IMG/VR virus record: IMGVR_UViG_3300022689_000178
Location: 1-64,000 of that record
DNA from: a virus
Strand: one strand, 5' to 3'
DNA length: 64,000 nt
Positions 6,696 to 51,610 of the stretch are shown here, in pieces. Numbering within the stretch: the stretch's first letter is position 1; the number at the start of each line of letters is the position of its first letter. A model generated the notes under the pieces. That model saw only the letters and a list, made by a program, of their open reading frames with translations. It made no database searches and had not been told where the DNA came from. The position numbers and the translations under genes were made by a program.

Positions 6696-7250
6696 ATGAG
6701 TTGTACGGCAATATTAGAAAAGTTTTCTATTCCAAAAAATTATACTGAGGATCAAAAAAAATGGATTACAAGAGCTATTATGGTAAAAACTGATCCGATA
6801 AAATATATGAAAAAAAAGAAAAAGCAAAGGCAGAAAAATGTAGTTAATAGTAATATTGCACCGGTCGAATGTGAAAAGGTTTTTGAAAAAGCAGTAAAGT
6901 ATTTTGAAATGTATGATTTAAAACCGGTTTTAATCACAGCCAGCATGTCAGTAAAAATACAATTGGAAAAGTCAGTAAGAAATTTAATCACATATAGACT
7001 CCCACGAATAGTTAATAATAAAATTGTAGGTAATTTGTATTTTAATGTGGTTAAAAATGATAATGATATTGAAAAACTGAAAATTGATCAGTTTGACATA
7101 AAAAGGGATAATTATGGACAGTTTAAAATTAATCGGATAACATTAGAGGATGTTTTAGAAATAATGACTGAAGAAAAGATTAGATATTTAAAAATTATCG
7201 CTAAACGAATAGATAATGAATATAGATATAATCAAAATAAGAAAACATGA
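6696..7250 (+). CDS. Hypothetical basic protein, 184 aa
   Basis: A highly lysine-rich protein with a basic cluster at about residues 44-55 (MKKKKKQRQKN), suggesting nucleic-acid contact. The remainder is mixed alpha/beta with no catalytic motif. It overlaps the Crp/Fnr-like gene by four bases (ATGA), so the two are translationally coupled. It may work with the regulator, but no family is recognised. Confidence 0.5.
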   Translation: MSCTAILEKFSIPKNYTEDQKKWITRAIMVKTDPIKYMKKKKKQRQKNVVNSNIAPVECEKVFEKAVKYFEMYDLKPVLITASMSVKIQLEKSVRNLITYRLPRIVNNKIVGNLYFNVVKNDNDIEKLKIDQFDIKRDNYGQFKINRITLEDVLEIMTEEKIRYLKIIAKRIDNEYRYNQNKKT

Positions 7251-7885
7251 AAAAATATAATGCTCAAAGAATAATTGAAATGATTAGTGATAAAGATAAA
7301 AAGGATTGTGTTATATTAAATTATGAAAAAAATGATACAATAAAAACGTTCCAGAAAATAGCAATTATAAAAAATGGAATAGTAAAATCTTTAAAAAATG
7401 ATAGAATCATAAAATTTTATAGACAAGATGATTTTATCAATTTAACCCACCTTTATAAATTTGAAAATACCCCAAAATTTATTTCTTGTAATGATTCTGA
7501 AATATTATATATACCAATATTAATAATGAAAAAATATATACAAGAAAACATATATTTTTCGGAATCTGTATTTGAATCGTATTTTAATGAAATAAATGAT
7601 TTACAAAATAGAATACAGGTTTTATCTACCAATAATGCAAAAAAACGAATGGCCGAAACATTTGTATCTATGCAAGAAAAATATCCTAATAAAGATATAC
7701 AGATGCCTATAAATGGGAATGATTGGGCGTGTTATATGGGTATGCGGACGGAAACATTTATTCGCAAATTGCAGGAGTTCAGAAATGATAATATTATTGA
7801 ATGTGAAAAACAGCAAAAATCTAATAATTATGGAGTATATCGCATCCTGAATATTGAATTTTTAAAAAAATTTATTTTGATATGA
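7247..7885 (+). CDS. Crp/Fnr-family transcription regulator, 212 aa
   Basis: The C-terminal ~90 residues follow the Crp/Fnr plan. A dimerisation helix (about 112-135) is followed by an R-M-AETF helix, a short beta segment (DIQMPINGNDW), a helix-turn-helix with recognition helix RTETFIRKLQEF near 166-177, and a closing wing (NIIECEK, then YGVYRILN). Within the recognition helix the Glu-Thr and the Arg four residues after the Glu match the E181/R185 pair of Crp and E209/R213 of Fnr, which read the TGA of each half-site. The N-terminal ~110 residues would be the sensor jelly roll but are divergent, with no cyclic-nucleotide phosphate-binding cassette or Fe-S cysteines. Matching TGA-N6-TCA sites occur at five promoters in this window, the first at the 3' end of this gene. 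Confidence 0.8.
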   Translation: MKKYNAQRIIEMISDKDKKDCVILNYEKNDTIKTFQKIAIIKNGIVKSLKNDRIIKFYRQDDFINLTHLYKFENTPKFISCNDSEILYIPILIMKKYIQENIYFSESVFESYFNEINDLQNRIQVLSTNNAKKRMAETFVSMQEKYPNKDIQMPINGNDWACYMGMRTETFIRKLQEFRNDNIIECEKQQKSNNYGVYRILNIEFLKKFILI

Positions 7886-7925
7886 TAATTGTCATAAATA
7901 TTATATATACAAAACATTAAATTTG
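7883..7925 (+). promoter_or_regulatory. Dyad-type promoter (Crp/Fnr-like box plus TAAATTTG)
   Basis: TGATAATTGTCA at 7883-7894 (TGA-N6-TCA) is followed by the -7 box TAAATTTG at 7918-7925, exactly 35 bases start to start. The dyad centre would lie near -41 from the expected transcription start. The downstream ATG is at 7944. Confidence 0.65.
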
Positions 7926-7943
7926 TCGAAAAAATAATAAGAT

Positions 7944-8369
7944 ATGGATTATATAAATGATGCAAAGGTATATATTCCTTGCAAATACAAAGATGTTGAG
8001 CCGGGTGTGTATGATATAGTAACTATTGGGCATGTAACAGATATTGGATATAATGAAGTAGAAATATTGTATAATAATTCTATTATAGAAGTAAATATAT
8101 TTATTTTTGATTGGAAAATAGACATTAAATTTCCGGTATTGGTTTATAATGGGTTTAATGGAATACCGAAAATGAAAGATACAATAATGAAAGATGAATT
8201 GTATTGCATTAATCCGAGCGAAATGACTGTTAAAGAATTTGTAGATTTTTGCGGATCGATTAAAAATGCTTATCAAAGAGCATATATAATGGAGTGGGCA
8301 ATATCTTTTGAGAATGATAAAGTTAAGGAAAAGAGATTTATAAAGTCAATTGAGAAAAAAATAAAATAA
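7944..8369 (+). CDS. Hypothetical early protein, 141 aa
   Basis: The first gene behind the dyad-type promoter. The N-terminal 70 residues are beta-rich (YDIVTIGHVTDIGYNEVEILY) like a small SH3/KOW or Tudor-type barrel, and the C-terminal part is helical and charged. Its stop overlaps the next ATG by one base, coupling it to the possible helicase loader. No family recognised. Confidence 0.55.
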   Translation: MDYINDAKVYIPCKYKDVEPGVYDIVTIGHVTDIGYNEVEILYNNSIIEVNIFIFDWKIDIKFPVLVYNGFNGIPKMKDTIMKDELYCINPSEMTVKEFVDFCGSIKNAYQRAYIMEWAISFENDKVKEKRFIKSIEKKIK

Positions 8370-9710: not shown

Positions 9711-10367
9711 ATGATAAATAATAAAACTCTATTTGGATATGTTCAAATCCCATCAATCGCATATACCAATACAGAAATAATAAAAAATATTATGGTATTG
9801 CATGGTATTGATAGATTTGATTTGGATTGTACATATTCAATTGGTAATTTTTGGAAAAAATTGCCACAACCAAAATTTAAAAGTGATATTGAACCGCAAA
9901 GAGAAAATATAATTAAAGCAGATAGCAAAAACTTACCTTTTGAAAATATATCATTGAAAAGTATTATGTTTGACCCTCCTTTTATAATTGCAGGTACAAC
10001 TTATATGCAAAATAAAAAAGGGAGTAGTATAATTGCTAAACGGTTTGGTGCATATAAAAATTTTGATGATTTAAGAAGTCATTATAAAGAATCATTGAAA
10101 GATATTTATAGGGTATTAAAAAACAATGGTATATTGGTGTTTAAATGCCAGGATATTGTTTCAAATAGTAGAAATTATTTCACACATTGTATAGTTATGA
10201 ATATGGCCGTAGAAATTGGATTTTATCCTAAAGATTTATTCATTTTAATAACACGAAATAAAATAAATTCTTTTAATGGTGGAAGATGGAATAAACAATA
10301 CCATGCAAGGAAATATCATAGTTATTTTTGGGTGTTACAAAAGACTAAATGTAAAGTAATATATTGA
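9711..10367 (+). CDS. SAM-dependent DNA methyltransferase, DPPF type, 218 aa
   Basis: FDPPF near residues 87-91 is the motif IV of N6-adenine/N4-cytosine methyltransferases. The segment after it (LKDIYRVLKNNGILVFKCQD) is the usual helix-strand following motif IV. The C-terminus has the ARKYHSYFWVLQK signature common in small phage DNA methylases. A glycine-rich motif I is not obvious, so the SAM site is divergent or the protein is a short variant. It lies next to a Dam-like gene, so the phage may protect its DNA with a pair of modifications. Confidence 0.65.
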   Translation: MINNKTLFGYVQIPSIAYTNTEIIKNIMVLHGIDRFDLDCTYSIGNFWKKLPQPKFKSDIEPQRENIIKADSKNLPFENISLKSIMFDPPFIIAGTTYMQNKKGSSIIAKRFGAYKNFDDLRSHYKESLKDIYRVLKNNGILVFKCQDIVSNSRNYFTHCIVMNMAVEIGFYPKDLFILITRNKINSFNGGRWNKQYHARKYHSYFWVLQKTKCKVIY

Positions 10368-10385
10368 ATTTATAATTTGAATTTA

Positions 10386-10856
10386 ATGAAAAACAGGAAT
10401 CTTGATCATAAAGACCATTGGGCTACTCCTCCGGTATTCAAAGATAAAATTTATAAACAGTATAATATTGATTTTGATCCGTGTCCATATATGCACGATT
10501 TAACAAAATGGAATGGATTATATATAGAGTGGTGCAATAGAAATTATATTAATCCTCCATATTCTCGAAAGTTAAAAGAGGCATTTATAATAAAGGCATT
10601 AAAAGAAAGTAAAAAAGGAAAATTATGTGTATTATTATTGCCGGTTTCAACCAGCACAAAAATTTTCCATGATATTATTTTATATAATGCAACAAAGATC
10701 GAATTTATCAAAGGCCGTATACCATTTATCGGAATTAATTCTAAAGGACAGTATGTAAATTGGCATTTATGGAATAAGCCTGTACCTAAAAATATGGAAC
10801 AAATAAAAAATAGTGGTATGCACGATAGTATGATTGTTATATTTGGTAAAATATAA
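10386..10856 (+). CDS. Phage DNA N6-adenine methyltransferase, Dam-like, 156 aa
   Basis: The protein follows the small phage Dam family: DHWATPPVFKDKI near the N-terminus, FDPCPY, then NPPYSRKLKEAF as the catalytic motif IV and LLLPVSTSTKIFHD. ATG at 10386 is preferred to an in-frame TTG nine bases upstream. Members typically methylate the adenine of GATC, and GATC is common in the window, so it is not avoided. The length (about 155-160) matches the family. Confidence 0.75.
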   Translation: MKNRNLDHKDHWATPPVFKDKIYKQYNIDFDPCPYMHDLTKWNGLYIEWCNRNYINPPYSRKLKEAFIIKALKESKKGKLCVLLLPVSTSTKIFHDIILYNATKIEFIKGRIPFIGINSKGQYVNWHLWNKPVPKNMEQIKNSGMHDSMIVIFGKI

Positions 10857-12732: not shown

Positions 12733-13614
12733 ATGGAATTAACAAAACAAGATAAAATAAAAGCATTGAAATATTTCAAAGATATGGAGTATGACAAAAA
12801 AAAGTCATATAACGAATTATCAATGGTAGAAAAATTGAAGTGTGCGGCAAAATTAATGAATAGTTCTGTTTTTGTTAATACATTTAAAATACAGTTAGAA
12901 AAAGACTGTTTTGTGAAAAAAGAAAAGGATTATTGGACAGATGATTTATATTTATTTTTGCTTGATTTGAAATATGATAAGGATATTAATTTTAATTTGT
13001 TTTGCGATCATGATAAAGCATTGAATTATTTTAAGAAAATAGAAGCGAAAGATTTATTTTTCCCATATTTTAGAATTGAAGTAAAAGAAGGATTAATTCG
13101 GGGTGTTTGGTGTATAAGGGCAATAAAAAAGAAAATAAAAGGTGCTGATAAAATAGATAAACGAACATTAGAACAATTAGAAGATGAATTGTCCCAAAAA
13201 GCAATTGATATAAATATGGTTTATAATTATAAACAAATTAGATTAAAAAAATTAGCCAATTCATTTGTTTGTTATGATTATAATAAACAATTAAATAGTG
13301 GCATATATGAAAACATGTTAATACCGGAAGATCATGAAGTGGGTATGTGTTTTAAATATTTAGGGTATGTTCATACAGTTAAAGAATTAAAGACAAAAAA
13401 AGGAAATCCGTATCAAAGAATTGATGTAGAAGGGAAAACGGATAATCATAAGTTTATGATATGGGATAACATGGGTTTAAAGTTTAAGCCAAATACTGCA
13501 TATATATTTTTTATGAAAATTATATCAAAAAAAAACAAAAGAACTGGTATTGCTGGTAAAGAATTGAAAATTGTCGATGCAAAAAGAATATTAAAAAACA
13601 CAGAGGTATATTGA
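12733..13614 (+). CDS. Hypothetical replication-block protein with OB-like C-terminus, 293 aa
   Basis: ATG 12733 is chosen; an upstream in-frame ATG at 12670 would overlap the primase-helicase by 50 bases. The N-terminal 170 residues are helical and basic. The C-terminal ~110 residues (VGMCFKYLGYVHTVKELKTKKGNPYQRIDVEG and onward, in pieces) have the strand order of an OB fold, like the fold near the C-terminus of bacterial DNA polymerase III alpha. That suggests DNA binding. The function is not established. Confidence 0.45.
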   Translation: MELTKQDKIKALKYFKDMEYDKKKSYNELSMVEKLKCAAKLMNSSVFVNTFKIQLEKDCFVKKEKDYWTDDLYLFLLDLKYDKDINFNLFCDHDKALNYFKKIEAKDLFFPYFRIEVKEGLIRGVWCIRAIKKKIKGADKIDKRTLEQLEDELSQKAIDINMVYNYKQIRLKKLANSFVCYDYNKQLNSGIYENMLIPEDHEVGMCFKYLGYVHTVKELKTKKGNPYQRIDVEGKTDNHKFMIWDNMGLKFKPNTAYIFFMKIISKKNKRTGIAGKELKIVDAKRILKNTEVY

Positions 13615-13654
13615 TAATTGTCATAAAATATTATATTTAATTAATTTAATTTTG
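13612..13654 (+). promoter_or_regulatory. Dyad-type promoter (Crp/Fnr-like box plus TAATTTTG)
   Basis: TGATAATTGTCA at 13612-13623 overlaps the stop of the previous gene. The -7 box TAATTTTG starts at 13647, again 35 bases after the dyad start. ATG of the exonuclease gene is at 13675. Confidence 0.65.
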
Positions 13655-13674: not shown

Positions 13675-14253
13675 ATGGATTTAAAAAGATGTTATATAGA
13701 TGTTGAAACAACCGGTGTAAAGCATTGGAAAAATTGTGTCATACAATTAGCTGGCATTATTGAGATAAATAATAAAATTAAAGAAATATTTGAGTTTAAG
13801 CTTGCCCCTCATCCTAAAGCTAAAATTGAACCTTCCGCATTAGAAGTGAGTGGTTATACATTAGAACAAATAAAAAAATTTCCTGATAGATTTATTTCAT
13901 TCAATCAATTTACCGACATATTAAATAAATATGTTGATAAGTATAATAAAAAAGATAAATTCTTTTTTGTTGGATATAATTCATCTTTTGATGTTAATTT
14001 CATACGGGGTTTATTTAAGCAATGTAATAATGATTATTATGGTGCATATTTTTGGTCAGGGAGTATTGATATAATGGCATTGAGTTTATATGGATTAGCG
14101 AATGAAAGATATAAAATGTCAAATTTTAAATTAATGACAGTTGCAAGGCAATTAGGGATTCAAATAGATGAATCAAAATTACATGATGCCTTATATGACA
14201 TTCAAATTACACGAGATATATTTTTAATATTTGAACGATCTATAATTAAATAA
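13675..14253 (+). CDS. DnaQ-like 3'-5' exonuclease, 192 aa
   Basis: The three exonuclease motifs are intact: IDVETTG at residues 8-14 (Asp9, Glu11), YNSSFDVNF near 101-109, and HDALYD near 170-175 with the catalytic His and Asp. This is the DEDDh arrangement of the DnaQ/RNase T family. As a free-standing protein in the replication block it may proofread, degrade host DNA or process ends. It heads an operon with the SSB-like gene. Confidence 0.85.
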   Translation: MDLKRCYIDVETTGVKHWKNCVIQLAGIIEINNKIKEIFEFKLAPHPKAKIEPSALEVSGYTLEQIKKFPDRFISFNQFTDILNKYVDKYNKKDKFFFVGYNSSFDVNFIRGLFKQCNNDYYGAYFWSGSIDIMALSLYGLANERYKMSNFKLMTVARQLGIQIDESKLHDALYDIQITRDIFLIFERSIIK

Positions 14254-17090: not shown

Positions 17091-18074
17091 ATGATAGTAA
17101 AAGAAAAAATAGGGAGGGGGTTTTTATATTTTATGGACGTATTGGAGGGTTTAAAATTACTACTTGACAATAGCCAAGATTTAATAATAGTTGACCCACC
17201 TTATTACAAGACTGTAAATGAGAAATGGGATAAACAATGGAAGACCGAAAAAGAATATTTAGACTGGTGTAGATTATGGTTTGCTGAATGCGTAAGAGTA
17301 CTGAAAGACACAGGTAGTTTTTATTGCTATGGAAACTTTGACATACTGAGCAAACAAAAAGTATTGATATTTGATGATGCGCTGAACTTTAGGCAAAACA
17401 TTACATTAAACAAAGGATTGAAAAGTATTGCTGGAAGAACAAGCGACAAACTTAGAATGTTCCCGACTGCAAGTGAATACTTGGTGTTTTACACTAAACA
17501 AGAAATGTGGTTTGAAACACCCTTTTCAATTATTATGAAAAGACAAATGAAAGAAAAGGGATTAACTCAGATTGATATTTCTAAACTTATACTTTCACGA
17601 AATGGTAATTTAACTGGATGGGTGCATAATAAGATTAAGGGCATACAATTGCCAACAGCAGAGCAATGGAACAAAATATGCAATTTGTTTGAAATTAAAA
17701 ATGAATATGATTTATTGTGTGAAAGCTACGAAGAACAAAGGTTTACTTTTAACCTACCAACAGGACAAACCGATGTTTGGGATTTTACGCCCGACAAAGT
17801 TAGATTTGGAAATAAGACACAGAAACCACAAGACATAAGTAGAAGAATTATAAAAGCAAGTAGTAACGAAGAACAAAGTGTATTGATACCATTTGCAGGG
17901 AGTGGAAGTGAATGTGAAGCTTGCGAAGTATTGGGTAGAAATTGGACTGCGTTTGAGAATGACCAATTTAGCATTGACATTATACACGAACGATTTAAAA
18001 ACCTTAAAGCTTTTGAAAAAAGCAAAGAGCGTGGGCTTTTTTCTTTTACGGATGAACAGAACAAAGCTGATTAA
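17091..18074 (+). CDS. DNA methyltransferase, beta class, with internal HTH-like segment, 327 aa
   Basis: Motif IV DPPY at residues 35-38 comes first and motif I FAGSG near 267-271 comes last. This order (IV, target-recognition region, I) marks the beta group of N6-adenine/N4-cytosine methyltransferases. The intervening region holds a helix-turn-helix-like stretch (KGLTQIDISKLIL, then LPTAEQWNKICNLF), reminiscent of a Cro/C1-type domain. Composition is clearly foreign: GC richer, with no CCGG tetramer although the backbone is full of them. It lies between two inverted-repeat elements, so it may have arrived as a unit. It may modify phage DNA against host restriction. Confidence 0.8.
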   Translation: MIVKEKIGRGFLYFMDVLEGLKLLLDNSQDLIIVDPPYYKTVNEKWDKQWKTEKEYLDWCRLWFAECVRVLKDTGSFYCYGNFDILSKQKVLIFDDALNFRQNITLNKGLKSIAGRTSDKLRMFPTASEYLVFYTKQEMWFETPFSIIMKRQMKEKGLTQIDISKLILSRNGNLTGWVHNKIKGIQLPTAEQWNKICNLFEIKNEYDLLCESYEEQRFTFNLPTGQTDVWDFTPDKVRFGNKTQKPQDISRRIIKASSNEEQSVLIPFAGSGSECEACEVLGRNWTAFENDQFSIDIIHERFKNLKAFEKSKERGLFSFTDEQNKAD

Positions 18075-23168: not shown

Positions 23169-23594
23169 ATGGATATATGTATTGATTTTGATGGAACATG
23201 TGTATCACATGAATTTCCAAAAGTAGGTAAGGATATTGGAGCAGTTCCGGTATTGAAAAAATTACTTAAAAATGGACATAGATTAATTCTATATACCATG
23301 CGAAGTAATATTAGTAAAGTTAAGACAATAGATAATAATATTTGTGATAAGCCAGATAATTATTTAACTGATGCTGTAATGTGGTTTTGTGAAAATAAAA
23401 TTGAATTGTATGGAATAAATAAAAATCCTACTCAACATGGATGGACTAATAGCCCAAAGGTATATGGGCAATTATATATTGATGATTCAGGGTTAGGTAT
23501 TCCATTAACATATAATTCTGAAATTTCATTAAAACCGTATGTTAATTGGAAAATTGTTGAAAAAATGCTAATAAATAAAGGTTTAATAAAATAA
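23169..23594 (+). CDS. HAD-superfamily phosphatase, BT0820-like, 141 aa
   Basis: The catalytic loop CIDFDGT (Asp6, Asp8) opens the protein, LILYTMRS is HAD motif II, and YIDDSG near residue 109 supplies the acidic motif IV. The cap-less size (~140) and the NKNPTQHGWTNSPK stretch match the BT0820-like family found in Bacteroidetes and their phages. All catalytic acids are present. A nucleotide or sugar phosphate is a likely substrate; its role in infection is unknown. Confidence 0.75.
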   Translation: MDICIDFDGTCVSHEFPKVGKDIGAVPVLKKLLKNGHRLILYTMRSNISKVKTIDNNICDKPDNYLTDAVMWFCENKIELYGINKNPTQHGWTNSPKVYGQLYIDDSGLGIPLTYNSEISLKPYVNWKIVEKMLINKGLIK

Positions 23595-37560: not shown

Positions 37561-38004
37561 ATGAATAAGTTTAAATTGACGCATTCATATACTTTATTGT
37601 TTATTAGTTTATCATATAAATTACAGGCATATATTTGTAATGAAATTAATAATAAATATATAGTCGGTAAAAATTATGTATTAACAAGTACTTATATAAA
37701 AATAGATAAAGGTTATAAATGGGATGGTTGTAGTCCTAAATGGAAAATTGGCAAGTATATCATAGGTACACCGGACGGTAAAATAAATAAACAAGATAAT
37801 TTACCTAAATTGTATTATCCAAGTTTAATTCACGATGTTTTATATGATAGTTTTGAAAAACATGGATTAACAAGGAAAATATGTGATTTATTATTTTATG
37901 AATTAGCAAAAGAATATGATTTTCATTTTGCAAAGATTTACTATATTTTTGTGCAAATTTTGGGGGGAGTTTATCATAAATTAAGAAAAAAGAGAATAGC
38001 ATGA
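37561..38004 (+). CDS. DUF1353-like protein, 147 aa
   Basis: The pattern YIKIDKGYKWDGCSPKW, SLIHDVLYDSFEKHGLTRKICDLLFYEL and IYYIFVQILGGVYH follows DUF1353, a small family frequent in phages of many hosts and often near lysis genes. The conserved His-Asp of the LIHDVLY helix is present. Biochemical function is unknown. It overlaps the next gene by four bases. Confidence 0.6.
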   Translation: MNKFKLTHSYTLLFISLSYKLQAYICNEINNKYIVGKNYVLTSTYIKIDKGYKWDGCSPKWKIGKYIIGTPDGKINKQDNLPKLYYPSLIHDVLYDSFEKHGLTRKICDLLFYELAKEYDFHFAKIYYIFVQILGGVYHKLRKKRIA

Positions 38005-38522
38005 ATATTTTATATATATTATTAGAGGTAGGAAAACAAGCGGTAAAAGCAATTGAAGGTACATATAATCCAGATAGTACTTCTGATGTATTTAAGTTAG
38101 TTATAATTGTGATTAGTTCTATTATTAGTGGTTTAATAGGATTAAATATGTATTGGACAAAAAGATATATCAATGAAAATAAAAAATTTAATGAAACATT
38201 AAACGGTAAATTTGAAATATTTGCCGATAAAATGAAAACTGATATATTTGGAGTAAAATTGGATAGTAAACAGTTAGAAAAAGAGATAGAAAGAATAGAC
38301 AAACAAAATAATGTGGATAGGCAAAATAGTACTGAGAGAATAAATAGACATTCAAACGAAATAAAAAAGTTATTATCCAATTATGCTGTTTTACAAAATA
38401 TATTGGAACGGGTAGAAACTACAATTATAAACGTATCTAATGATATTAAACATACCGGAATACTTTCAGAATCTATACGATCACTTCAAGAGCAAATAAA
38501 AGAGTTGAAATCAAAACAATAA
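38001..38522 (+). CDS. Membrane-anchored coiled-coil protein, 173 aa
   Basis: One clear hydrophobic segment (about residues 31-50, KLVIIVISSIISGLIGLNMYW) is followed by ~110 residues of predicted coiled coil (KQLEKEIERIDKQNN, RVETTIINVSNDIKH). The soluble domain could face either side. This layout occurs in phage spanin- or holin-associated proteins. With the DUF1353 neighbour it could belong to a lysis module. No lytic enzyme was seen. Confidence 0.45.
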   Translation: MNILYILLEVGKQAVKAIEGTYNPDSTSDVFKLVIIVISSIISGLIGLNMYWTKRYINENKKFNETLNGKFEIFADKMKTDIFGVKLDSKQLEKEIERIDKQNNVDRQNSTERINRHSNEIKKLLSNYAVLQNILERVETTIINVSNDIKHTGILSESIRSLQEQIKELKSKQ

Positions 38523-38537: not shown

Positions 38538-38897
38538 TTATTTTGTAATATCATTTAAAATAACTTTTGGTTTCCAAATTCTTTGTGATGAATGTTGGTT
38601 TTCTTGCCAATGAATAGTACAATTTTTAGTTATTCGTATTGAAATAAATCTAATGAATTTAATAATATCTGAATCTTTTTTCAATTCTATTGGTGGCCAT
38701 AACCAATTTGATTTGTTTTTTATATATGGATTATAATATCCTGCAATAATTTCATTATCCCTTAAAGTAATTATTAAATCATATTCAAAATTATTATAAA
38801 TTATACTTTCATATAATCTTTGTTTTAATTCTCGGATTATATCAAAATTTGTTTTATTATAAGTAGAATAAGATTTGTGTTTAAATAAATGAAACAT
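38538..38897 (-). CDS. Leftward accessory protein, 119 aa
   Basis: Encoded on the opposite strand to nearly all other genes, behind its own dyad-type promoter (38929-38971). The product is soluble, aromatic-rich and mixed alpha/beta (YDLIITLRDNEIIAGYYNPYI). Its orientation, size and separate promoter suggest a moron. The function is unknown. Confidence 0.55.
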   Translation of the reverse strand: MFHLFKHKSYSTYNKTNFDIIRELKQRLYESIIYNNFEYDLIITLRDNEIIAGYYNPYIKNKSNWLWPPIELKKDSDIIKFIRFISIRITKNCTIHWQENQHSSQRIWKPKVILNDITK

Positions 38898-38928: not shown

Positions 38929-38971
38929 CAAAATTAAAATAAATATTTATTTGCACTTATGATAATTGTCA
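38929..38971 (-). promoter_or_regulatory. Leftward dyad-type promoter
   Basis: Read leftward, TGACAATTATCA (38971-38960) is followed 35 bases later by TAATTTTG (38936-38929), the same spacing as the rightward copies. It overlaps the rightward late promoter at 38970. Confidence 0.65.
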
Positions 38972-38998: not shown

Positions 38999-41900
38999 AT
39001 GAAAAAATATATGGTTAAATACATTAATGAAAAAGTAATACTTTGTCATACTACATTAAATAAATCCTTTTTTTTATCACATGAATTAGAAGTAGTTGAA
39101 ACGAATAATAAAATAATTTCAACTATAAAAAAAGCAAATGCACCCACTAATATATCTACCCCCAAACAAGGTTCTTCATGGTCAGTTGAATTATTGAGAA
39201 ATAATCCAGGTTCAAGATGGATTACATTCAGGGGACATAAAGTATTAATAAGGGGTAATGCTGATGGTACGGCCACAGTCGTATATAGTGGAAATCCTTC
39301 ACATGAACATTTACGAATTATTCCTAAAGAACATAAAGAATATGCAAAAATAAAAGAAGCAAAACAAAAAAGTAATGAACAAAAAGCCGGTGATAGTACA
39401 GAAGTTAAAAGAACAATTACAGAAGTAGGTAAAAAAATTACCAAACAAAAACAAAATTTAATAGTAAATAAAATTACCGAAGGTGAACCATCGGGTGTGG
39501 AAAAAGACATACCAAAAATAGGTAATGAAAAAATTGATATACCAAGCATAAAAAAAGAGGATATACCAGAAAAAAATAAAAATTTTACAAAAGAATTTGA
39601 TAAACTCAATGATAAAGAAAAACAGAAAACTCTCGATGAGTTATTAGATCATGCTAAAAATAAAATAACACAAGATCATGAAGATTCTGTAAAATATTCG
39701 GATTTTGATTCACATAAAAAAGTGAATATTAAAAGTCAAAATCCTTTATTAGATGGAATGGAGATTGACAAGGAAACTGCAATAAATATTGTGGGACATG
39801 AGTTAGCTGCAAAACAAATAAAAAAAGAAGCTGTAAAAGACATCAAAAAAAATGATATTACAAGTCTTGGCAATATAGGTATTACTGATTATGACTTGGA
39901 GGCATTACCATCTGATCCGGTTGCAATAACAGAAACCGTTTTACGTGAAAAGGAAAACAGGATTCGTGCAGAAAAAAATACACAATTTTATAATAATTTA
40001 GATAAAAAATTAGAAGGCCGGTCTAAGCAAATTTCAAATGAAATTACAAAAGGCGCTCATGCCGAATTATATGCGATGTCCAGTTTAATAATGGATGGAA
40101 ATGGTTTTTCTAAAGATATGTTAAAATTTTTGGGTATTGATAATGCCACAAAAATTTTAGCTTCATTAATAGATAAAAAAACAGATAGAGATAAAATAGA
40201 AAAAGATTTAGAAAAAGTTTTATCTAAAAAAAATCAAATTATTGTTAATAACACCTTAGATGCCTACCAACAACAAAATGATATTATTAATGCTTATAAA
40301 GAACAATCAAAGGATATTTATGACGAAAACGGAAATTTAGTATCAAAAAAAATGTTAGCGGCTGCAACTGCTAATGCTAATATTGCGCGTGTTACTAAGG
40401 AACAAAATAAAGAATTAGGAAACGCAACCGGATCGCTACAAACGGCTGCAAGTTTATTAGAAAACATACGTGAAATAAAAGATACTGGTTCTAACGACAT
40501 GGTTTTAGATGGAGGATTAAGCAAAAGAAGTTTGATTCATAAATTGAAAAAATTTGGATTAATAGATTCAGTTAATATAGAAAAAGGAGAAGATGGCAGA
40601 TATAAAGTAACAATCCCAAAAAATCAATTTAATAAAATACTTTCTAATAATACAACAAATGCTAAAATAGATGAAAAAGTAAAAAAAATAAAGGAGGGTG
40701 CAACAGTACGATATGGTAAAGATAGTTTGGCTGCCGGTCAACCTGATTCATTTATTGATTTTATGACTGAAAAAGAATTTAATAAGAACAATGACAAATT
40801 AAATCAAATAAGGCGCAAACAAGCTAATGGAACAAATTTGACAGAAGAAGAGGAGAAATTTTATAATAAATATAATGGATATAATAAGTATGTTAATACA
40901 AAAGGTGAGGAGGGATATACAAGTTCTCAAAAAGAAGGAACAATATTATATGGTAAAAAAATGAAGGCAAGGCTTGATCCTCACCAACAGAAAGCTGTTG
41001 CTATGGCTAATAGTCAAAAACGTTATATAATGGATTTTGGTGCTGGTACTGGGAAAACAATTGCACATTTAGCTTCAATTTCAGATTTGAAAGCAAAAGG
41101 AAAATTGCATAGTGTTGCTGTTATGAGTCCACCATCAAGATTAGTAAAAGAGTTTTTTAAAGATCAAGAAAAATTTTTCCCAAATTTAAAAATGTTAAAT
41201 TTAGATGAGGTTAAAGGAGGGATCGAGGCTAAAAGAAAAGCGATTGAAGATGTTAAAAAAAACGGATATGATATAATAATATCTGGTCATGATTCAATTA
41301 AAAGTGGCATGTTAAAAAATGACAATCCTACTGATTTTGTCGATAATAAGATGAAAGAATTAAGTAAAGCAATAAATACAAATCATGTAAGGAGAACTAA
41401 AAAACAAAAAGAATTGGTAAGTAAATATAAAAGCATTTATTCTAAAAAAGATGGAATAAATCAAATGCGAGAATTATTTAATAAACAATTTGAGGATAAT
41501 AAAGGTTTACCGGAAATAATAGCAAATGTAAAACCATCTTATTTGGGAGTAGATGAGGCACATGAAGTATGGGGTGAAAAAACACAAAGTCAAAAATCTG
41601 AATCTTTACGAAAAATGGCTGATAGTGCAAATCATTTTGTTCCATCGACCGGTACATTAATGAGATCGGGTATAGGAGATTTTGCTAATATTATGAATTT
41701 AACACGGCCAGATTTAGTTCCGGATGTTGATGAATTTAAAAATAAATATGCGCAAGGTATAACCGGAAATGTAACAGAAGGCATCATTAATAATGAAATG
41801 GCAAAAGAAGTAGATGCTGGCATATTAACACATAAAACAGATATTACTCCACAAAAAAAACGAAATATTGATAATCCAGAACATGAAAAATTAGACTTAT

Positions 41901-43795
41901 CATTAAATCAAAAAATTGCGTATGCAAATAATGAAAATATGTATAGGCAAGACAGAAATTTTAATAAAAAAAATGGATTAAATAGAAGTTTTGGTGTATG
42001 GGATATTGAAAAGAATAGATTAATTACACATCCAAACGGAAATATTAAAGATATTAAAGAATTGCGAAATCATGATACATTACAAGTAAATGAATCGGAT
42101 AGTGCAAATCAAACAAAAGAAGCATTACAAGAATTAAAAAAAGCAGGTTATAAAAATGCAGATAAATATAAACTAGTTGAATTGGGTGGTACAGGTGCGG
42201 CTGCCCGGAGAGATTCAATGCACGATAACATTATTAATAACGGTGATTATAAAAATAATGTTAAAGTTCAAAATATGCTACAAGATATTGAGGAGAATCC
42301 AGATCATAATCACGGTGTATTTTATACAAATAGGAAAACAAAAAATACAATTACTGATGCCTTATTGTCTAAAGGATACAAAAGAGAAGATATTGCATTC
42401 ATAGATGCCGATAATAATAAAAAACAAAATAATCAAATATTATCGGATTATATGACAGGCAAGAAAAAAATATTAGTTGGTTCACAGGTTGCAATGACAG
42501 GTTTAAATATTCAAAAAATGGATACTATACATTTTATCGGAGTACCTAAAACATATAATCAGGAGCAACAGGCAGAGGCACGGGCACACAGAAAAGGCAG
42601 AGAAAATTATGCAAATGAATCTAATCCGGCGGCTGATGTAAGAATATTACACCATGAAACAAATACAGTAATTGACAATAATGCAAGAAAAAATATTACA
42701 AGGCAAAAAAAAGAGGCTGCAAAAATAAAACAATATGAAGAAAATTATGGACTGAAACAAGAGGCGCAAGTAAGTAAATCTTATATAAGTAAATCAATTA
42801 TAAATAAAAAAAGAAATATTAAATACATAATAAAAGGAAGAAAGGCTGCTTCCATAGGAGCTAAAAGTCCTGATGGAAAACGTATTAAAATTGCTAATGA
42901 ATGGATTCCTGTTAAAAATGTAAAATTAACAAAAATTGATTATAATAAACTTTTAAATGCGAAAAAAGCAATACAAGCTCAACCAGTATTAAGAAATGAC
43001 CCGAATGCAAAAGGACAAACTGCATTAAAAAAAGAATCATTACCTGAAAAATATGTTTTTCGGAAAACAACCGGAAAAAAGAAAGTTGAACGAGTAATGC
43101 AAGAGTTTAAAGAAGGTAATTTGAAAGATAAATATGGTAAAATTATTACTAATAGAAAACAGGCAATTGCTATTGCACTAAACGAAGCCGGGTTATCTAA
43201 AGATATTGTAAATGAATATGAACAATGGCAAAATGATAATTTAGACAAAAATATAATAGATTTTATCGATCAACGAAACAATCAATTATTTATAAAAAAT
43301 ATTGCTATTGGTCGTAAATACAAAGATGGTCAAAATATAAAAACATTACAAGGCCGGAAAAAAATAAATCCGTTAAAACAAGAATTAAAAAAATACACAG
43401 CTAATAGTAATGTTAATATAAAACAATTGCCAGAAAACATAAAAAATCAAATTATTGATATAATGGCAAAAAATCCATTTTTAACACCACAGCAAGCATA
43501 TAATAAATTAAAGATTACTAAAGGTCATAAAGATCAATTTCAGGGACAAATTTTGCAAACCGGAATTATTGATGGATGGGATATTAATAATATATTCAAA
43601 TTTGATTCTAATGCAATAGATTGGAAAAATATTAAGGTATTAAATACGCAAGAAAATAATAGTTTAAAACAATTTATTGATAGGATAAAAAATATTAAAG
43701 ATTGGAATAAGCTCAAAGATATTGCAAGAAAAATGATTAATAGGAATGATTGGTATAAATTCATAAAACTATATTTTAATTATGGCAAAAGATAA
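38999..43795 (+). CDS. Giant polyvalent protein with SNF2-type helicase, 1598 aa
   Basis: The N-terminal ~110 residues hold a small barrel-like domain (GSRWITFRGHKVLI). A long charged helical region follows. Residues ~660-1210 form a complete superfamily 2 helicase: GAGTGKT (~681), VMSPPSRLV, VDEAH (~851), STGTLMRS, then the second lobe VFYTNRKTKN, VGSQVAMTGLNIQ and QAEARAHRKGR. A second barrel-like segment (SPDGKRIKIANEWIPV) and a DUF6496 block (KKVERVMQEFKEG, RKQAIAIALNEAG, ~1360-1405) lie near the C-terminus. Its size and place in the head module recall injected DarB-like or other polyvalent proteins that enter the cell with the DNA. The anti-restriction role is inference. Confidence 0.7.
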   Translation: MKKYMVKYINEKVILCHTTLNKSFFLSHELEVVETNNKIISTIKKANAPTNISTPKQGSSWSVELLRNNPGSRWITFRGHKVLIRGNADGTATVVYSGNPSHEHLRIIPKEHKEYAKIKEAKQKSNEQKAGDSTEVKRTITEVGKKITKQKQNLIVNKITEGEPSGVEKDIPKIGNEKIDIPSIKKEDIPEKNKNFTKEFDKLNDKEKQKTLDELLDHAKNKITQDHEDSVKYSDFDSHKKVNIKSQNPLLDGMEIDKETAINIVGHELAAKQIKKEAVKDIKKNDITSLGNIGITDYDLEALPSDPVAITETVLREKENRIRAEKNTQFYNNLDKKLEGRSKQISNEITKGAHAELYAMSSLIMDGNGFSKDMLKFLGIDNATKILASLIDKKTDRDKIEKDLEKVLSKKNQIIVNNTLDAYQQQNDIINAYKEQSKDIYDENGNLVSKKMLAAATANANIARVTKEQNKELGNATGSLQTAASLLENIREIKDTGSNDMVLDGGLSKRSLIHKLKKFGLIDSVNIEKGEDGRYKVTIPKNQFNKILSNNTTNAKIDEKVKKIKEGATVRYGKDSLAAGQPDSFIDFMTEKEFNKNNDKLNQIRRKQANGTNLTEEEEKFYNKYNGYNKYVNTKGEEGYTSSQKEGTILYGKKMKARLDPHQQKAVAMANSQKRYIMDFGAGTGKTIAHLASISDLKAKGKLHSVAVMSPPSRLVKEFFKDQEKFFPNLKMLNLDEVKGGIEAKRKAIEDVKKNGYDIIISGHDSIKSGMLKNDNPTDFVDNKMKELSKAINTNHVRRTKKQKELVSKYKSIYSKKDGINQMRELFNKQFEDNKGLPEIIANVKPSYLGVDEAHEVWGEKTQSQKSESLRKMADSANHFVPSTGTLMRSGIGDFANIMNLTRPDLVPDVDEFKNKYAQGITGNVTEGIINNEMAKEVDAGILTHKTDITPQKKRNIDNPEHEKLDLSLNQKIAYANNENMYRQDRNFNKKNGLNRSFGVWDIEKNRLITHPNGNIKDIKELRNHDTLQVNESDSANQTKEALQELKKAGYKNADKYKLVELGGTGAAARRDSMHDNIINNGDYKNNVKVQNMLQDIEENPDHNHGVFYTNRKTKNTITDALLSKGYKREDIAFIDADNNKKQNNQILSDYMTGKKKILVGSQVAMTGLNIQKMDTIHFIGVPKTYNQEQQAEARAHRKGRENYANESNPAADVRILHHETNTVIDNNARKNITRQKKEAAKIKQYEENYGLKQEAQVSKSYISKSIINKKRNIKYIIKGRKAASIGAKSPDGKRIKIANEWIPVKNVKLTKIDYNKLLNAKKAIQAQPVLRNDPNAKGQTALKKESLPEKYVFRKTTGKKKVERVMQEFKEGNLKDKYGKIITNRKQAIAIALNEAGLSKDIVNEYEQWQNDNLDKNIIDFIDQRNNQLFIKNIAIGRKYKDGQNIKTLQGRKKINPLKQELKKYTANSNVNIKQLPENIKNQIIDIMAKNPFLTPQQAYNKLKITKGHKDQFQGQILQTGIIDGWDINNIFKFDSNAIDWKNIKVLNTQENNSLKQFIDRIKNIKDWNKLKDIARKMINRNDWYKFIKLYFNYGKR

Positions 43796-44048
43796 GAATA
43801 CTATACGGTTAAATAATGTAATGCGGGTAACAGCGGCACATGATATAAAAACTAAAAAACATATTGACGATATGATTGCGCAAAATGAATTATTTACAAA
43901 AGAATATGATAAAAAAATGAAACAATTAAAACAAATTGATTCAAAACAATATCCAAAAGAATATTTAAGGTTAAGTAATGAAATTACAGATATGGCTGTT
44001 GCTATTAAAATGAATGAAAATACTATTAAAGAATTACAATTAACATAA
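43782..44048 (+). CDS. Hypothetical coiled-coil protein, 88 aa
   Basis: Overlaps the end of the giant gene by 14 bases. The product is helical and charged (YDKKMKQLKQIDSKQYPKEYL). The position between the polyvalent protein and the protease suggests a head-assembly accessory, but no family is recognised. Confidence 0.5.
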   Translation: MAKDKNTIRLNNVMRVTAAHDIKTKKHIDDMIAQNELFTKEYDKKMKQLKQIDSKQYPKEYLRLSNEITDMAVAIKMNENTIKELQLT

Positions 44049-44059
44049 TACAATTTGAT

Positions 44060-44968
44060 ATGAATACAACGGCACAATTTATAAATCCTGAAAGTGAATT
44101 TAATTTTAATGTTAATGCTGATATAATTAAATCGGATGGCAATAAAATTGAGAAAGAAGCGGATTTGGATTATAACAATATGTGGATTCAGGGTGTGGCA
44201 TCCGATAATACTAATGATGCGGAGGGTGAATCCTTATCACCAAAAACTTTTCAATTAGATTATTTTATGAAAGTTGGTAAAATAACCTATGAACATGGAC
44301 ATAAAGAAACTCCGACAAAAGCAATTGGTGAACCAAGAAAAGCAATTATAACACCACAAAATCAATTTTTCGTAAAGGCTATATTGTATTCAAGTAGTGA
44401 TTTGGCCAAAGATGTATATAAACAAACTTGGATATTACAAAATGACCCAAACTCAACACGAAGAATGCAATGGAGTATTGAAGGAAAAAGAATATGGGAA
44501 AATAACAAAGTCGTTGGTGCAATTATCACTCATGTTACTTTAACACAAAATCCAATTAATTATAAAAATACCTATGCAGAGGTTGTGAAAAAAGCATTTA
44601 ATATAAATTCAGATAAACCGGAACAATTAAATACTGATGATGAAATTCAAAAATCAATTAAAGAATCTGAATTAATGTTATGGTTACATAGTATTGATTC
44701 AAATATTTATAGTCAAATACAAAAGGCAGAAAAATATTGTGAAATATTAATGTACTGTGAAAAATATCCAAATTATAAACAATATTTTACAAATAATACA
44801 ATTGATAAATTAAATCAATTGGTACAATTAAATGATATTAAAAAAAGCTATCAATATATTGATATTATATTCGGATTAATAAATAAATATCCCTCCGCAA
44901 GTGATTATTTCAATAAAGATATTGTCAAAAAAACAAATGAAATAATTACACGGGCAGAAAATCAATAA
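44060..44968 (+). CDS. Prohead protease, XkdF-like, 302 aa
   Basis: Residues ~30-180 follow the XkdF-type phage protease family: NNMWIQGVASDNTNDAEGESLSPKTF, YEHGHKETPTKAIGEP with a His in the active-site strand, and MQWSIEGKRIWENNKVVGA with a Ser, then ITHVTLTQNPIN. The His/Ser pair fits the herpesvirus-like prohead protease fold. The helical C-terminal ~120 residues may act as a scaffold part. Placement directly before scaffold and capsid genes agrees. Confidence 0.7.
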   Translation: MNTTAQFINPESEFNFNVNADIIKSDGNKIEKEADLDYNNMWIQGVASDNTNDAEGESLSPKTFQLDYFMKVGKITYEHGHKETPTKAIGEPRKAIITPQNQFFVKAILYSSSDLAKDVYKQTWILQNDPNSTRRMQWSIEGKRIWENNKVVGAIITHVTLTQNPINYKNTYAEVVKKAFNINSDKPEQLNTDDEIQKSIKESELMLWLHSIDSNIYSQIQKAEKYCEILMYCEKYPNYKQYFTNNTIDKLNQLVQLNDIKKSYQYIDIIFGLINKYPSASDYFNKDIVKKTNEIITRAENQ

Positions 44969-48562: not shown

Positions 48563-49318
48563 ATGCGAAGTAAGCAACAATTAAGGAGCGATTTTGATAC
48601 TATTGGTTTTGAAAATCTTGTTTATCAAAATGCAGCCAAAATAAAACTTGAAAAAGCTATACTTTGTCCATGTGGACGAAAAGATAACCAACATTCAAAA
48701 CGTTGCATTAATTGTAATGGTACAGGATTTTTCTTTGATGAGTATTCTCAAAATATTTGGGGTATGATAACAAGTTTAAATTATAACCAAATATTAGGGT
48801 TAACACGTGAGGAGCTTAATGCAACGGCTAATTTAACATTATCTAAAACTTATGATGCACGGTTACAAGTGTATGACAAATTAACTATATTAGATGGAAA
48901 AGGAATTACCACCTACAAACAAATATTCCCTGAAATAAGGGAGAATAATTTAGGAATTGATGTATTGGATGTGCAAGTAAATCAAAAGATACAATCTATT
49001 GAAATGATTTATTTATATATTGATGATAAAACACCACTGCAAAAATTAAATGAATCCGATTATAGTTATTATAACAATATCATTCAATTTTCAGATGTAT
49101 TAAAAAATCAATTACAACAATCCGGAAATGATTCTTATAGTATGACTGTACGATATAGATATTTGCCTACATATCAAGTTATGCGAACAGAACATAATAT
49201 AAGACAAACAAGAATTTTGCAAACTGGTGGAATAGAAGCATTAGAATTTTTACCATTAATGTATTTAATTCAAGAATCATGGTATTTTGCCCAAAATACC
49301 GGATATGAAAATAATTAA
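48563..49318 (+). CDS. Head-completion-type protein with zinc ribbon, 251 aa
   Basis: CPCGRKDNQHSKRCINCNGTGFFF near residues 33-55 holds four Cys in two CxC/CxxC pairs, like the CxxCxGxG zinc knuckles of DnaJ. The rest is beta-rich. Genes of this type lie next to connectors in several Bacteroidetes phages, which fits a neck protein. It converges with the leftward gene at 49315, overlapping by four bases. Confidence 0.5.
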   Translation: MRSKQQLRSDFDTIGFENLVYQNAAKIKLEKAILCPCGRKDNQHSKRCINCNGTGFFFDEYSQNIWGMITSLNYNQILGLTREELNATANLTLSKTYDARLQVYDKLTILDGKGITTYKQIFPEIRENNLGIDVLDVQVNQKIQSIEMIYLYIDDKTPLQKLNESDYSYYNNIIQFSDVLKNQLQQSGNDSYSMTVRYRYLPTYQVMRTEHNIRQTRILQTGGIEALEFLPLMYLIQESWYFAQNTGYENN

Positions 49319-49497
49319 ATATTTTCCATATCAATATTACCTTCACATTTAGGACAAAGTAATTTATCAAATTTTTTATCTGTCAATAAATTTTCAATAT
49401 CATTTGTTTCAAAATCACAATTCAAACAATAAAACGTAAAATTAATATTAGCATCCTGTATGCTACCATCTATATTAATTATTATATCATTTTCCAT
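49315..49497 (-). CDS. Small zinc-ribbon protein, leftward, 60 aa
   Basis: CLNC near residue 24 and CPKC near residue 48 form two Cys-x2-Cys pairs about 24 residues apart, typical of a rubredoxin-like zinc ribbon. It lies 5 bases behind the leftward gene at 49502 and shares its promoter. Such ribbons bind nucleic acid or protein. Function unknown. Confidence 0.55.
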   Translation of the reverse strand: MENDIIINIDGSIQDANINFTFYCLNCDFETNDIENLLTDKKFDKLLCPKCEGNIDMENI

Positions 49498-49501
49498 GAT
49501 C

Positions 49502-49846
49502 TCAATATTTAAAATTATTTTTTGTTTTCATTACTACTTCAAAAAATTCAGTAAATCTATTTTGTAATTCAGTAAATAAATATTGTTTCAATCGTGCATT
49601 AATATCATGCGAAATCATAGCAAAAATGGACATATTAAATTCAATTGTATCTTCTGTAATAACATTTTTTGTAAAAATATTATTTAATTGGGTTTCATTA
49701 ATCCGTTTACGTTTTATTTCAGGATGGTTAATATGAATCCATTTTCCTTTATGAATTACTTCAACCGGATTAATAATATTAATGATACAATTAGAATCAT
49801 TTAAAGTTATTTCACCATACACTAAATTATATTTTTTTTCAGTCAT
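49502..49846 (-). CDS. Leftward accessory protein, 114 aa
   Basis: A soluble protein with a beta-rich first half (NLVYGEITLNDSNCIINIINPVEV) and a helical second half. It is the first gene of a two-gene leftward unit inside the late rightward module, behind a dyad-type promoter. No family recognised; probably a moron. Confidence 0.55.
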   Translation of the reverse strand: MTEKKYNLVYGEITLNDSNCIINIINPVEVIHKGKWIHINHPEIKRKRINETQLNNIFTKNVITEDTIEFNMSIFAMISHDINARLKQYLFTELQNRFTEFFEVVMKTKNNFKY

Positions 49847-49877
49847 TATATATTATTATTTATTGTTAATAATAAGG

Positions 49878-49920
49878 CAAAGATATTAATAGTAATATTA
49901 AATATAAATGACAATTATCA
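49878..49920 (-). promoter_or_regulatory. Leftward dyad-type promoter
   Basis: Read leftward, TGATAATTGTCA (49920-49909) is followed by TATCTTTG (49885-49878), exactly 35 bases start to start and a full match to TAnnTTTG. ATG of the first leftward gene is about 30 bases further on. Confidence 0.7.
49890..49909 (+). promoter_or_regulatory. Variant late-type promoter, neck gene
   Basis: TAGTAATATT at 49890-49899 followed by AAATATAAAT is one mismatch from the late consensus and lies 44 bases before ATG 49934, within the span of the leftward promoter. Confidence 0.45.
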
Positions 49921-49933
49921 TAAACTTAAAATT

Positions 49934-50818
49934 ATGGTTATACAAGAAATAAATTTAGGAGATTATATATATGATATTGGTTTAAATGCGCAAGAAATTG
50001 AAGAAATTACTAAATTAACAGTACAACAAATAACCAATAAAATAAAAAAGAATATTGTAGAAAAAGCCAGCAATGAATTATTTAGAACTAAATCCAATTA
50101 CATAAAAAATGTAAACACTCAATTTTCAAATGATGGATTAAAGGGATATATTTTTCTTGCAAATAAAAAAGCATTAATGATTGAAGAAGGATTATCTCCT
50201 TTTGATATGAAAACCGGTTTTGCTAATTCTGAAAAAGCAAAAAGGACTGAAACAAATAAAGAAAAATTGCAAAAAAAAGGTAAACAAAAATGGATGGAAA
50301 AAGGATGGCATCTAACCATTCCATTTAGATTAGGTGTACCGGAATCAATTGGTGAAGAATTTTCCGGTAATTTGAATGATAGTATATACAATATTGCTTT
50401 ACGTGATTTGGAAAAAAAAGTATCACAACGGGCAGAAAATACGAAAACCGGAGAATCATTTATAAAAAATAAATATAGTGGAATAGGTATAAATCAATTA
50501 GCGAACTTAAATAAAGGATATGAAATTCCTTCAATAAATAGGAGGGACAAATGGACATCACCTGCTCCTCCTATATATACACATAAATCCGCAATGTTTG
50601 AGGGTGTAACTAAAATAGAAGAGGTTTATAAAAAAACAGTACAAAGTACATATTTAAAATTTAGACGTGTAAGTAGTAATTCCGATCCGAATTCATGGAT
50701 GCATCCTGGCATAAAAGCTCATAAATATTTTGATAAAGTAATGCAAGAAATAGATTTTGACCAAGAAACATCAAATTACATAGATAAAGTATTGTTACAA
50801 TTAGGATTTATTGAATAA
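49934..50818 (+). CDS. Neck/tail-completion protein, gp10-like, 294 aa
   Basis: The C-terminal part SWMHPGIKAHKYFDKVM is typical of HK97 gp10-like tail-completion proteins, here with an enlarged middle. Residues ~60-90 (GYIFLANKKALMIEEG) follow the same family's strand layout. Position between connector and tail-terminator genes agrees. It converges with the leftward membrane gene and overlaps it by 11 bases. Confidence 0.6.
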   Translation: MVIQEINLGDYIYDIGLNAQEIEEITKLTVQQITNKIKKNIVEKASNELFRTKSNYIKNVNTQFSNDGLKGYIFLANKKALMIEEGLSPFDMKTGFANSEKAKRTETNKEKLQKKGKQKWMEKGWHLTIPFRLGVPESIGEEFSGNLNDSIYNIALRDLEKKVSQRAENTKTGESFIKNKYSGIGINQLANLNKGYEIPSINRRDKWTSPAPPIYTHKSAMFEGVTKIEEVYKKTVQSTYLKFRRVSSNSDPNSWMHPGIKAHKYFDKVMQEIDFDQETSNYIDKVLLQLGFIE

Positions 50819-51518
50819 TATTTTTATCCTTAAAATGTTCTAATGTCCATGTGTCAAAATCAAAATTGATATAATCATTTTCTTGTAAATATGTTTCAAT
50901 TATTTGAGCAATTTGTTTCCGATTCCCATCTTTAGTTTTATTAAATCTGCCTTTTATATAATAATAATAAGCAATTTTATATATTTGACATTCCTTATCA
51001 TTATATTTATTACTATTAGTTACTTTTTGTAATTCATTATACTTTTCAGTTAATTCTATTAATTGATTATTCTTTACTTTAATCAAACTATTTAATTTAT
51101 CAATTTCATATTTACTACTATTATTTACTTTTTTTGTTTTTTGTCTAACAAAACCAACACCTAAAGTAACTAATATAGTAAAAAATGAGTACAATATAGA
51201 TACATATTCAATTCGTTTAGTTTCTTCTATTAATGTATTGTACCATAAAAAAATTACTAATCCATCAAATATGGCAAAACAAAATTTCAATAAAAAGTCA
51301 TTACTTCTTTTTTCAAATATTTTATTTTGTGCGATTACATAAATTGTTGCTGCCGAATAACAAAAAGCAAATATAGCATTTGCAATATTTTCTATTAAAT
51401 CGTTGACCGTTTCAAAATTTGCAGCCCAAAATATTAATCGTGTATTACTGATTAATAAATGAAACAATAAGGAAATTAAAATGATAATTGAAAAGTGTTT
51501 TGTCATAAAATTTTTCAT
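50808..51518 (-). CDS. Leftward membrane protein with coiled coil, 236 aa
   Basis: Four hydrophobic segments lie in the first ~125 residues (about 8-28, 44-62, 78-97, 104-122). A coiled coil follows (about 130-165), then a soluble C-terminal domain of ~70 residues. This two-part layout (membrane sensor plus cytoplasmic domain) recurs in superinfection-exclusion and anti-phage membrane effectors. It is a single-gene leftward unit with its own promoter in the middle of tail genes. Role is inferred from context. Confidence 0.5.
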   Translation of the reverse strand: MKNFMTKHFSIIILISLLFHLLISNTRLIFWAANFETVNDLIENIANAIFAFCYSAATIYVIAQNKIFEKRSNDFLLKFCFAIFDGLVIFLWYNTLIEETKRIEYVSILYSFFTILVTLGVGFVRQKTKKVNNSSKYEIDKLNSLIKVKNNQLIELTEKYNELQKVTNSNKYNDKECQIYKIAYYYYIKGRFNKTKDGNRKQIAQIIETYLQENDYINFDFDTWTLEHFKDKNIIQ

Positions 51519-51567
51519 AATAATAGTATTTGAAAAGTTATTAATTATATTTAAAAAACAACATTTG

Positions 51568-51610
51568 CAATAATAAAGTAATTTAAAACTAATCTTTATG
51601 ACAAAAATCA
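51568..51610 (-). promoter_or_regulatory. Leftward dyad-type promoter, weaker match
   Basis: Read leftward, TGATTTTTGTCA (51610-51599) keeps TGA-N6-TCA, and TATTATTG (51575-51568) lies 35 bases later, one mismatch from TAnnTTTG. It shares bases with the rightward late promoter at 51609. Confidence 0.5.

Follow-up and report, generated by a model that had tools for sequence, protein, structure and literature searches.

The virus record IMGVR_UViG_3300022689_000178 (IMG/VR; 76,824 bases) carries five copies of a Crp/Fnr-type DNA site, each at the same distance from a promoter box, and a gene for a regulator of the Crp/Fnr family (7247-7885). The window, the whole stretch of DNA that was analysed (positions 1 to 64,000), is most of this record. 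Genomes of Bacteroidota contain this site with identical spacing, and the phage sites are very probably FNR-class operators of the bacterial type. It is likely that all five promoters represent a class copied from the probable host group and are activated by the phage's own member of the family and probably also by host Fnr-type or REC-Crp proteins (fusions of a receiver domain and a Crp protein).

The original prediction, made from the sequence of the window, placed five TGA-N6-TCA dyads in it, each with a -7 box starting exactly 35 bases after the start of the dyad, read in the direction of the gene. All five dyads are present where they had been placed, and the distance is exact in 5 of 5. 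Four dyads share one 12-mer, TGATAATTGTCA, on either strand, and the fifth differs at 2 of 12 positions, also as predicted. Dyads on the - strand are given in the leftward reading:

7883-7894, + strand: site 1 dyad TGATAATTGTCA, overlapping the stop codon of the regulator gene
7918-7925, + strand: site 1 -7 box TAAATTTG
13612-13623, + strand: site 2 dyad TGATAATTGTCA
13647-13654, + strand: site 2 -7 box TAATTTTG
38960-38971, - strand: site 3 dyad TGACAATTATCA
38929-38936, - strand: site 3 -7 box TAATTTTG
49909-49920, - strand: site 4 dyad TGATAATTGTCA
49878-49885, - strand: site 4 -7 box TATCTTTG
51599-51610, - strand: site 5 dyad TGATTTTTGTCA
51568-51575, - strand: site 5 -7 box TATTATTG

On the + strand, site 3 has no fitting box (TAATATGA is found there), so the dyad at 38960 is taken to serve the leftward gene 38538-38897. 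The bare dyad is not enriched; the window contains 26, against a shuffle mean of 20.2, and 12 of 100 shuffles were as high. Of the 62 dyad readings in the whole record, 5 are paired with a TAnnnTTG box at 35. The pairs of dyad and box are not as frequent by chance, a comparison that could have refuted the original prediction: five were observed, against a mean of 0.115 and a maximum of 2 in 200 dinucleotide shuffles, and a second set of 200, counted for dyad and box at 35, gave a mean of 0.13 and a maximum of 2. No other dyad-box distance from 14 to 60 occurs more than twice in the record. One fixed distance is expected of a class II Crp/Fnr-dependent promoter, and all five sites (5/5) keep to 35. 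Chance recurrence of an AT-rich pattern, in favour of which the G + C content of the record (27.6%) and the commonness of TAnnnTTG boxes (368 in the record, both strands) could be cited, is hardly credible, since no shuffle out of 200 reached five in either run and the bacterial rule described below also contradicts it. The 12.8 kb of the record beyond the window contain no sixth site. Within the open reading frame (ORF) 64106-65740, a TGATAATGATCA dyad at record position 65278 (+ strand) is followed by TAAATTTG at a distance of 36 bases; this combination is probably due to chance.

TAnnTTTG is the -7 box of Bacteroidota. If it begins at -12, as we assume, the centre of the dyad is at -41.5. 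Judged from the spacing, the dyads would be centred about 41.5 bases before the transcription start, the class II activator position.

The same arrangement was found in bacteria. A scan of GTDB genomes with TGATWWTTGTCAT + N22 + TANNTTTG gave at least 118 genome stretches matching TGATWWTTGTCAT at the phage spacing. Among the matches listed, 80 of 80 taxa are Bacteroidota (76) or Chlorobiota or Ignavibacteria (4), some of the 76 Bacteroidota assignments being made from the genus or family name. Spacing was compared in a Flavobacteriaceae-type sample of 199 genomes, the family of one matching genome, with 21 spacings allowed. With the forward pattern, 70 of 87 matches were at exactly the phage spacing and 3 at the next best, and the reversed-pattern control had 8 matches, all spacings counted. 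For the opposite orientation (TGACANNNATCA), 110 of 150 among the matches listed were at the phage distance and 7 at the next best; the corresponding control had 51, again for all spacings together and added up by eye. Four of the five phage sites fit the bacterial operator TGATNNTTGTCAT and the fifth is the reverse reading, which is used by bacteria too. The assignment of the sites to the Crp/Fnr type at a fixed, class II-like distance is upheld by the five phage sites at 35 and by the same rule in bacteria.

A same-strand ORF lies within 150 bases in 90 of the at least 118 bacterial stretches. The downstream genes of these 90 loci, in similarity clusters that were each named from one representative, encode universal stress proteins (Usp, 13), c-type-cytochrome-like lipoproteins (12), HemN (11), CcoS (4), proteins without Pfam match (4), pyridine-nucleotide oxidoreductases (3), Fnr-type regulators (2) and hexose kinases (2); three more pairs and 33 singles remain, of which one pair and one single are also Usp-like. 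The representatives of HemN and CcoS are above the NCBIfam cut-offs. The Fnr-type protein of locus L073 has Fnr as its nearest family, at a score below the cut-off (104 of 228 bits). We read this gene set as an FNR-type (low-oxygen and stress) regulon. For Flavobacteriaceae-type bacteria it would provide such a regulon with a precise operator and spacing, ATGAY-N4-RTCAT with 35 bases from the start of the dyad to TAnnTTTG. In the parts of the open-access literature available to us, no account of such a motif or of an FNR regulon in these bacteria was found, and it may well be described elsewhere.

The regulator of the phage is encoded directly before site 1:

7247-7885, + strand: Crp/Fnr-family regulator, 212 amino acids (PF13545 HTH_Crp_2; predicted fold)

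This product had been described as a Crp/Fnr-type protein with a fitting recognition helix, and the description is borne out by the PF13545 match, the predicted fold and the helix, T-E-T-F-I-R. The C-terminal Crp-type winged helix is present (PF13545 HTH_Crp_2, 34.3 bits, cut-off 27). There was no match to cNMP_binding (PF00027) at E up to 1, and none to a receiver domain or a PHROG. The AlphaFold2 model (predicted local distance difference test, pLDDT, 85.4; predicted template modelling score, pTM, 0.77) is a prediction from a 16-row alignment and not a solved structure; it contains an N-terminal beta-roll, with few strands in the N-terminal part, and a long dimer helix (102-128). Foldseek matched the model over its whole length to Crp/Fnr proteins of the PDB; the best was 2gau, a Crp/Fnr protein of Porphyromonas gingivalis, then CRP, with A. 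fischeri FNR at rank 12, and the TM scores normalised by query were 0.80 for 2gau and 0.80 for FNR 9qll. In the 16-row alignment E169 is nearly invariant and R173 invariant, and we take these two to be DNA-contact residues. Two cysteine features kept by five host Fnr-type proteins, an N-terminal CxxC and the Cys at the VC[FY]IPK column, which corresponds to C122 of E. coli, are absent from the phage protein. In sequence the phage protein is closest, among host proteins, to REC-Crp fusions, with 28-30% identity for the top two genome matches. Placing it in a tree with the REC-Crp or the Fnr-type group failed (long branch, support 88/70, long-branch warning from the program). Considering the helix, the position of the gene and the kept fold, binding of the phage protein to the sites appears rather more probable than its absence.

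No relatives of the regulator were found in IMG/VR by sequence or with the alignment A1, nor in INPHARED by tblastn; in the A1 search confirmation used the divergent phage sequence, and distant phage-borne Fnr genes may be missed. The parts of the literature on phage-borne Crp/Fnr regulators that were available to us held nothing relevant.

In bacteria, site and regulator occur together. Relatives of the phage regulator (E <=0.001) are present in 95 of 296 genomes of the phylum, and a Crp/Fnr relative was found in 14 of the 14 site-bearing genomes (P 6e-8, without ancestry correction); in 8 of these 14 the distance between a site and the matching regulator gene is 0.1-11.1 kb. The host recognition helix is T-E-S-x-I-R in 39 of 49 rows, or 38 of 48 distinct sequences (one row is a duplicate); the rows without it are L117, L049, L196, L167, L180, L181, L188, L095 and two of L113. 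A site stands directly behind a REC-Crp gene at 11 distinct loci (twelve rows, one locus having been fetched twice), most of which were found via the site itself, so that the count is not a frequency. A usp gene follows at 10 of the 11 (L101, L106, L100, L122, L097, L068, L124, L046, L033 and L080); the remaining locus, L105, stops at the site. Six other REC-Crp rows have no such site within 500 bases, and three Fnr-type genes have a site upstream. Receiver domain and cNMP_binding were confirmed for the REC-Crp protein of L101, the only fusion checked for these domains. The order of fusion gene, site and usp may represent a route by which two-component signalling enters the FNR-type regulon.

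Other families use TGA-N6-TCA-like dyads too, and the factor that reads TGAY-N4-RTCA at these sites could come from outside the Crp/Fnr family. This is very unlikely, because Crp/Fnr genes adjoin the bacterial sites (the 11 REC-Crp loci and the three Fnr-type genes, most found via the site), because the site is within 11.1 kb of the regulator gene in 8 of the 14 genomes, and because the content of the regulon is FNR-like.

Two other, unrelated phage contigs carry the sites. G005 (41 kb) has three at 35 and L150 (9.7 kb) has four, one of them before an ERF gene, with at most one in shuffles of either. L150 encodes a DnaB helicase and an ERF recombinase, and 20 of its ORFs have no match to the study phage or to G005; between G005 and the study phage there are just four protein matches, all weak. 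Only G005 was kept from the eight first IMG/VR pattern matches: G006 and G007 were set aside, being beside repressor-type helix-turn-helix genes of temperate phages (read by eye), G001 and G008 were nearly one sequence around the site, and G002, G003 and G004 were inside ORFs. In a second IMG/VR pattern list of 25 rows, only the G005 and L150 records have more than one site. G005 (L024-L025) also has three TGACA-N3-ATCA dyads at 4931, 9856 and 33566, all leftward and before three different genes, which lie 39 and not 35 bases before TAAATTTG, four bases further out (maximum of 2 in 200 shuffles). A second spacing rule at 39 was not adopted and these dyads are treated as an oddity, as the bacterial search in reverse orientation peaks at 35.

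These contigs bear on the question of who operates the promoters. The original prediction had left open a phage-run activator or a captured host regulon. Capture of a host regulon is well supported by the comparison of sequences, with the same site and spacing before FNR-type genes in Flavobacteriaceae-type genomes; the phage-run part is weakened by G005 and L150, which have sites and in whose examined parts no Crp-like gene was detected, and that the phage protein runs the five sites is plausible. The strongest competing explanation, less probable than joint control and with perhaps a third of our confidence, is that a host Fnr-type or REC-Crp protein alone drives promoters which the phage has borrowed to sense low oxygen or stress, while the phage protein has another target or decays. 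The spacing rule shared with bacteria agrees with this, as do the two contigs with sites and no Crp-like ORF in the parts examined. However, the phage keeps a full-length protein with a predicted Crp/Fnr fold and an intact helix, its gene abuts site 1, and its contact residues fit the site.

The protein could also be a competitor or repressor, which occupies FNR-type sites and silences the five units, or genes of the host FNR regulon, for part of the infection. Its very long branch and the few N-terminal strands of the model could mean that activating surfaces have been lost. We consider this unlikely: no result here points to repression, and a single site close to -41.5 is typical of an activator.

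Several observations weigh against activation by host and phage proteins together. Identity between the phage protein and the host proteins in its alignments is only 15-26%, and the branch of the phage protein in the Crp tree has a length of 3.14 changes per column; with such divergence its DNA specificity could have drifted. Its own gene has no such site upstream. A phage relative with both the regulator gene and the sites was not found in IMG/VR or INPHARED, no Crp-like ORF was detected in the examined parts of G005 and L150 despite their sites, and in three terminase-related cultured Bacteroidota phages (188 kb scanned) no TGAY-N4-RTCA dyad is accompanied by a box at 25-49. The co-occurrence of site and regulator in genomes is confounded by shared ancestry. 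Finally, the strict forward site is present in only 14 of 296 genomes of the phylum (0 for the reversed-pattern control), and the forward pattern, over all spacings, in 70 of the 199 Flavobacteriaceae-type genomes; the bacterial rule holds most strongly in one part of the phylum, to which the phage host need not belong.

For joint control by host and phage proteins we propose the following mechanism. The operator ATGAY-N4-RTCAT over a Bacteroidota -7 box would define a class of promoters in the probable host group, under which the phage would have placed two rightward units (just after the regulator, and at the exonuclease) and three leftward accessory units. A dimer of an FNR-family protein at the operator would recruit the host RNA polymerase; both the binding and the activation are inferred, the latter from the spacing. 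A host Fnr-type or REC-Crp protein probably can activate the phage promoters. The phage member of the family, fast-evolved, with the same contact residues and apparently without sensing parts, would most likely let them fire whatever the oxygen or stress state of the host. As the sensor parts are missing from the phage protein, it may bypass host sensing of oxygen or stress. The sites, the spacing, the bacterial rule and the recognition helix are read directly from sequence, and the fold is predicted. The phage may in this way use, or even take control of, a regulatory circuit of the host, and what was a pattern in an orphan phage can now be tested as a connection between the control of phage genes and the oxygen or stress physiology of Bacteroidota. 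A further step, tentative and on balance doubtful, is that the protein is an oxygen- and signal-blind FNR mimic, which keeps the five phage units on and also drives the host regulon of hemN, cbb3 oxidase and universal stress protein. If this were true, one small phage protein would reprogram host respiration during infection.

The genes behind the sites are:

7944-8369, + strand: first gene after site 1
13675-14253, + strand: first gene after site 2, a DNA-polymerase-type exonuclease (PF00929, 57.4 bits; phrog_192, 96.9 bits)
38538-38897, - strand: leftward gene after site 3
49315-49846, - strand: leftward unit after site 4, consisting of 49502-49846 and 49315-49497
50808-51518, - strand: leftward gene after site 5, 236 amino acids, N-terminal half hydrophobic by eye

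Methyltransferase and primase-helicase genes lie between 7944-8369 and site 2. Nearly all genes of the window run rightward. That every leftward accessory unit has a site is correct for the three accepted as real (38538-38897, 49315-49846 and 50808-51518); the other leftward ORFs that passed a simple filter, 6451-6660, 37805-38380 and 43769-44077, each overlap rightward ORFs and were treated as spurious. The product of 50808-51518 has a weak AI-2E-transporter match below the cut-off and looks like a membrane accessory protein.

Pfam and PHROG scans identified genes for a large terminase, portal, major head protein, primase-helicase and exonuclease. Among cultured phages the nearest relatives of the terminase are phage vB_RanS_PJN03 and phages of Chryseobacterium and Croceibacter (identity <=40.3%), and no terminase relatives were found in IMG/VR. 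These relatives, together with the TAnnTTTG boxes, point to a phage of Bacteroidota. The 41 phage ORFs that were compared with PHROGs or Pfam, of 104 kept by the simple filter, included no integrase; with this part of the ORFs covered, a temperate life is conceivable. Shortly before the regulator, 4644-5762 has a DUF2793 match just above the cut-off, which we take to be a tail-type domain, and the regulator may perhaps mark the border of late and early genes. Other genes include a 1598-amino-acid helicase with DarB-like antirestriction and DUF6496 matches (38999-43795), a second phrog_62 helicase (record position 64106-65740), four DNA methyltransferases (9711-10367, 10377-10856, 17091-18074 and record 71782-72765; two match phrog_67), and, rightward, a radical SAM protein and a phosphoheptose-isomerase-like protein (20380-21138 and 23169-23594).

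Among known systems, FNR (fumarate and nitrate reduction regulator) and its class II promoters are similar in the Crp/Fnr fold, the Glu and Arg of the recognition helix, the half-site TGAT and the single fixed distance to the -7 box, and also in the presence of hemN and cbb3-oxidase assembly genes in the bacterial regulon. They differ in the half-site (ATGAY here, TTGAT in FNR), in the Bacteroidota -7 box, and in the cysteines which five host Fnr-type proteins keep and the phage protein lacks. HcpR2 of Bacteroides and Porphyromonas also belongs to the Crp/Fnr family and to Bacteroidota. In one study the FNR box is given as TTGATnnnnATCAA and the HcpR2 consensus as GTAACnnnnGTTAC, with hcp as the only member of the HcpR2 regulon (PMC1274295); neither box equals the site in the phage and the bacteria. 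HcpR in Bacteroides is the subject of another report (PMC13370916), and Crp/Fnr proteins of Flavobacteriales and Ignavibacteria are predicted to have MalR-like, carbon-sensing roles (PMC8510549). The flavobacterial REC-Crp proteins are the best match of the phage protein and share with it the order of gene, site and next gene, but the fusion of L101 has receiver and cNMP_binding domains, for neither of which the phage protein has a match. In phage T4, MotA and AsiA redirect the host polymerase to the phage's own set of promoters. The phage described here would resemble T4 in redirecting the host polymerase, with the difference that the promoter class belongs to bacteria.

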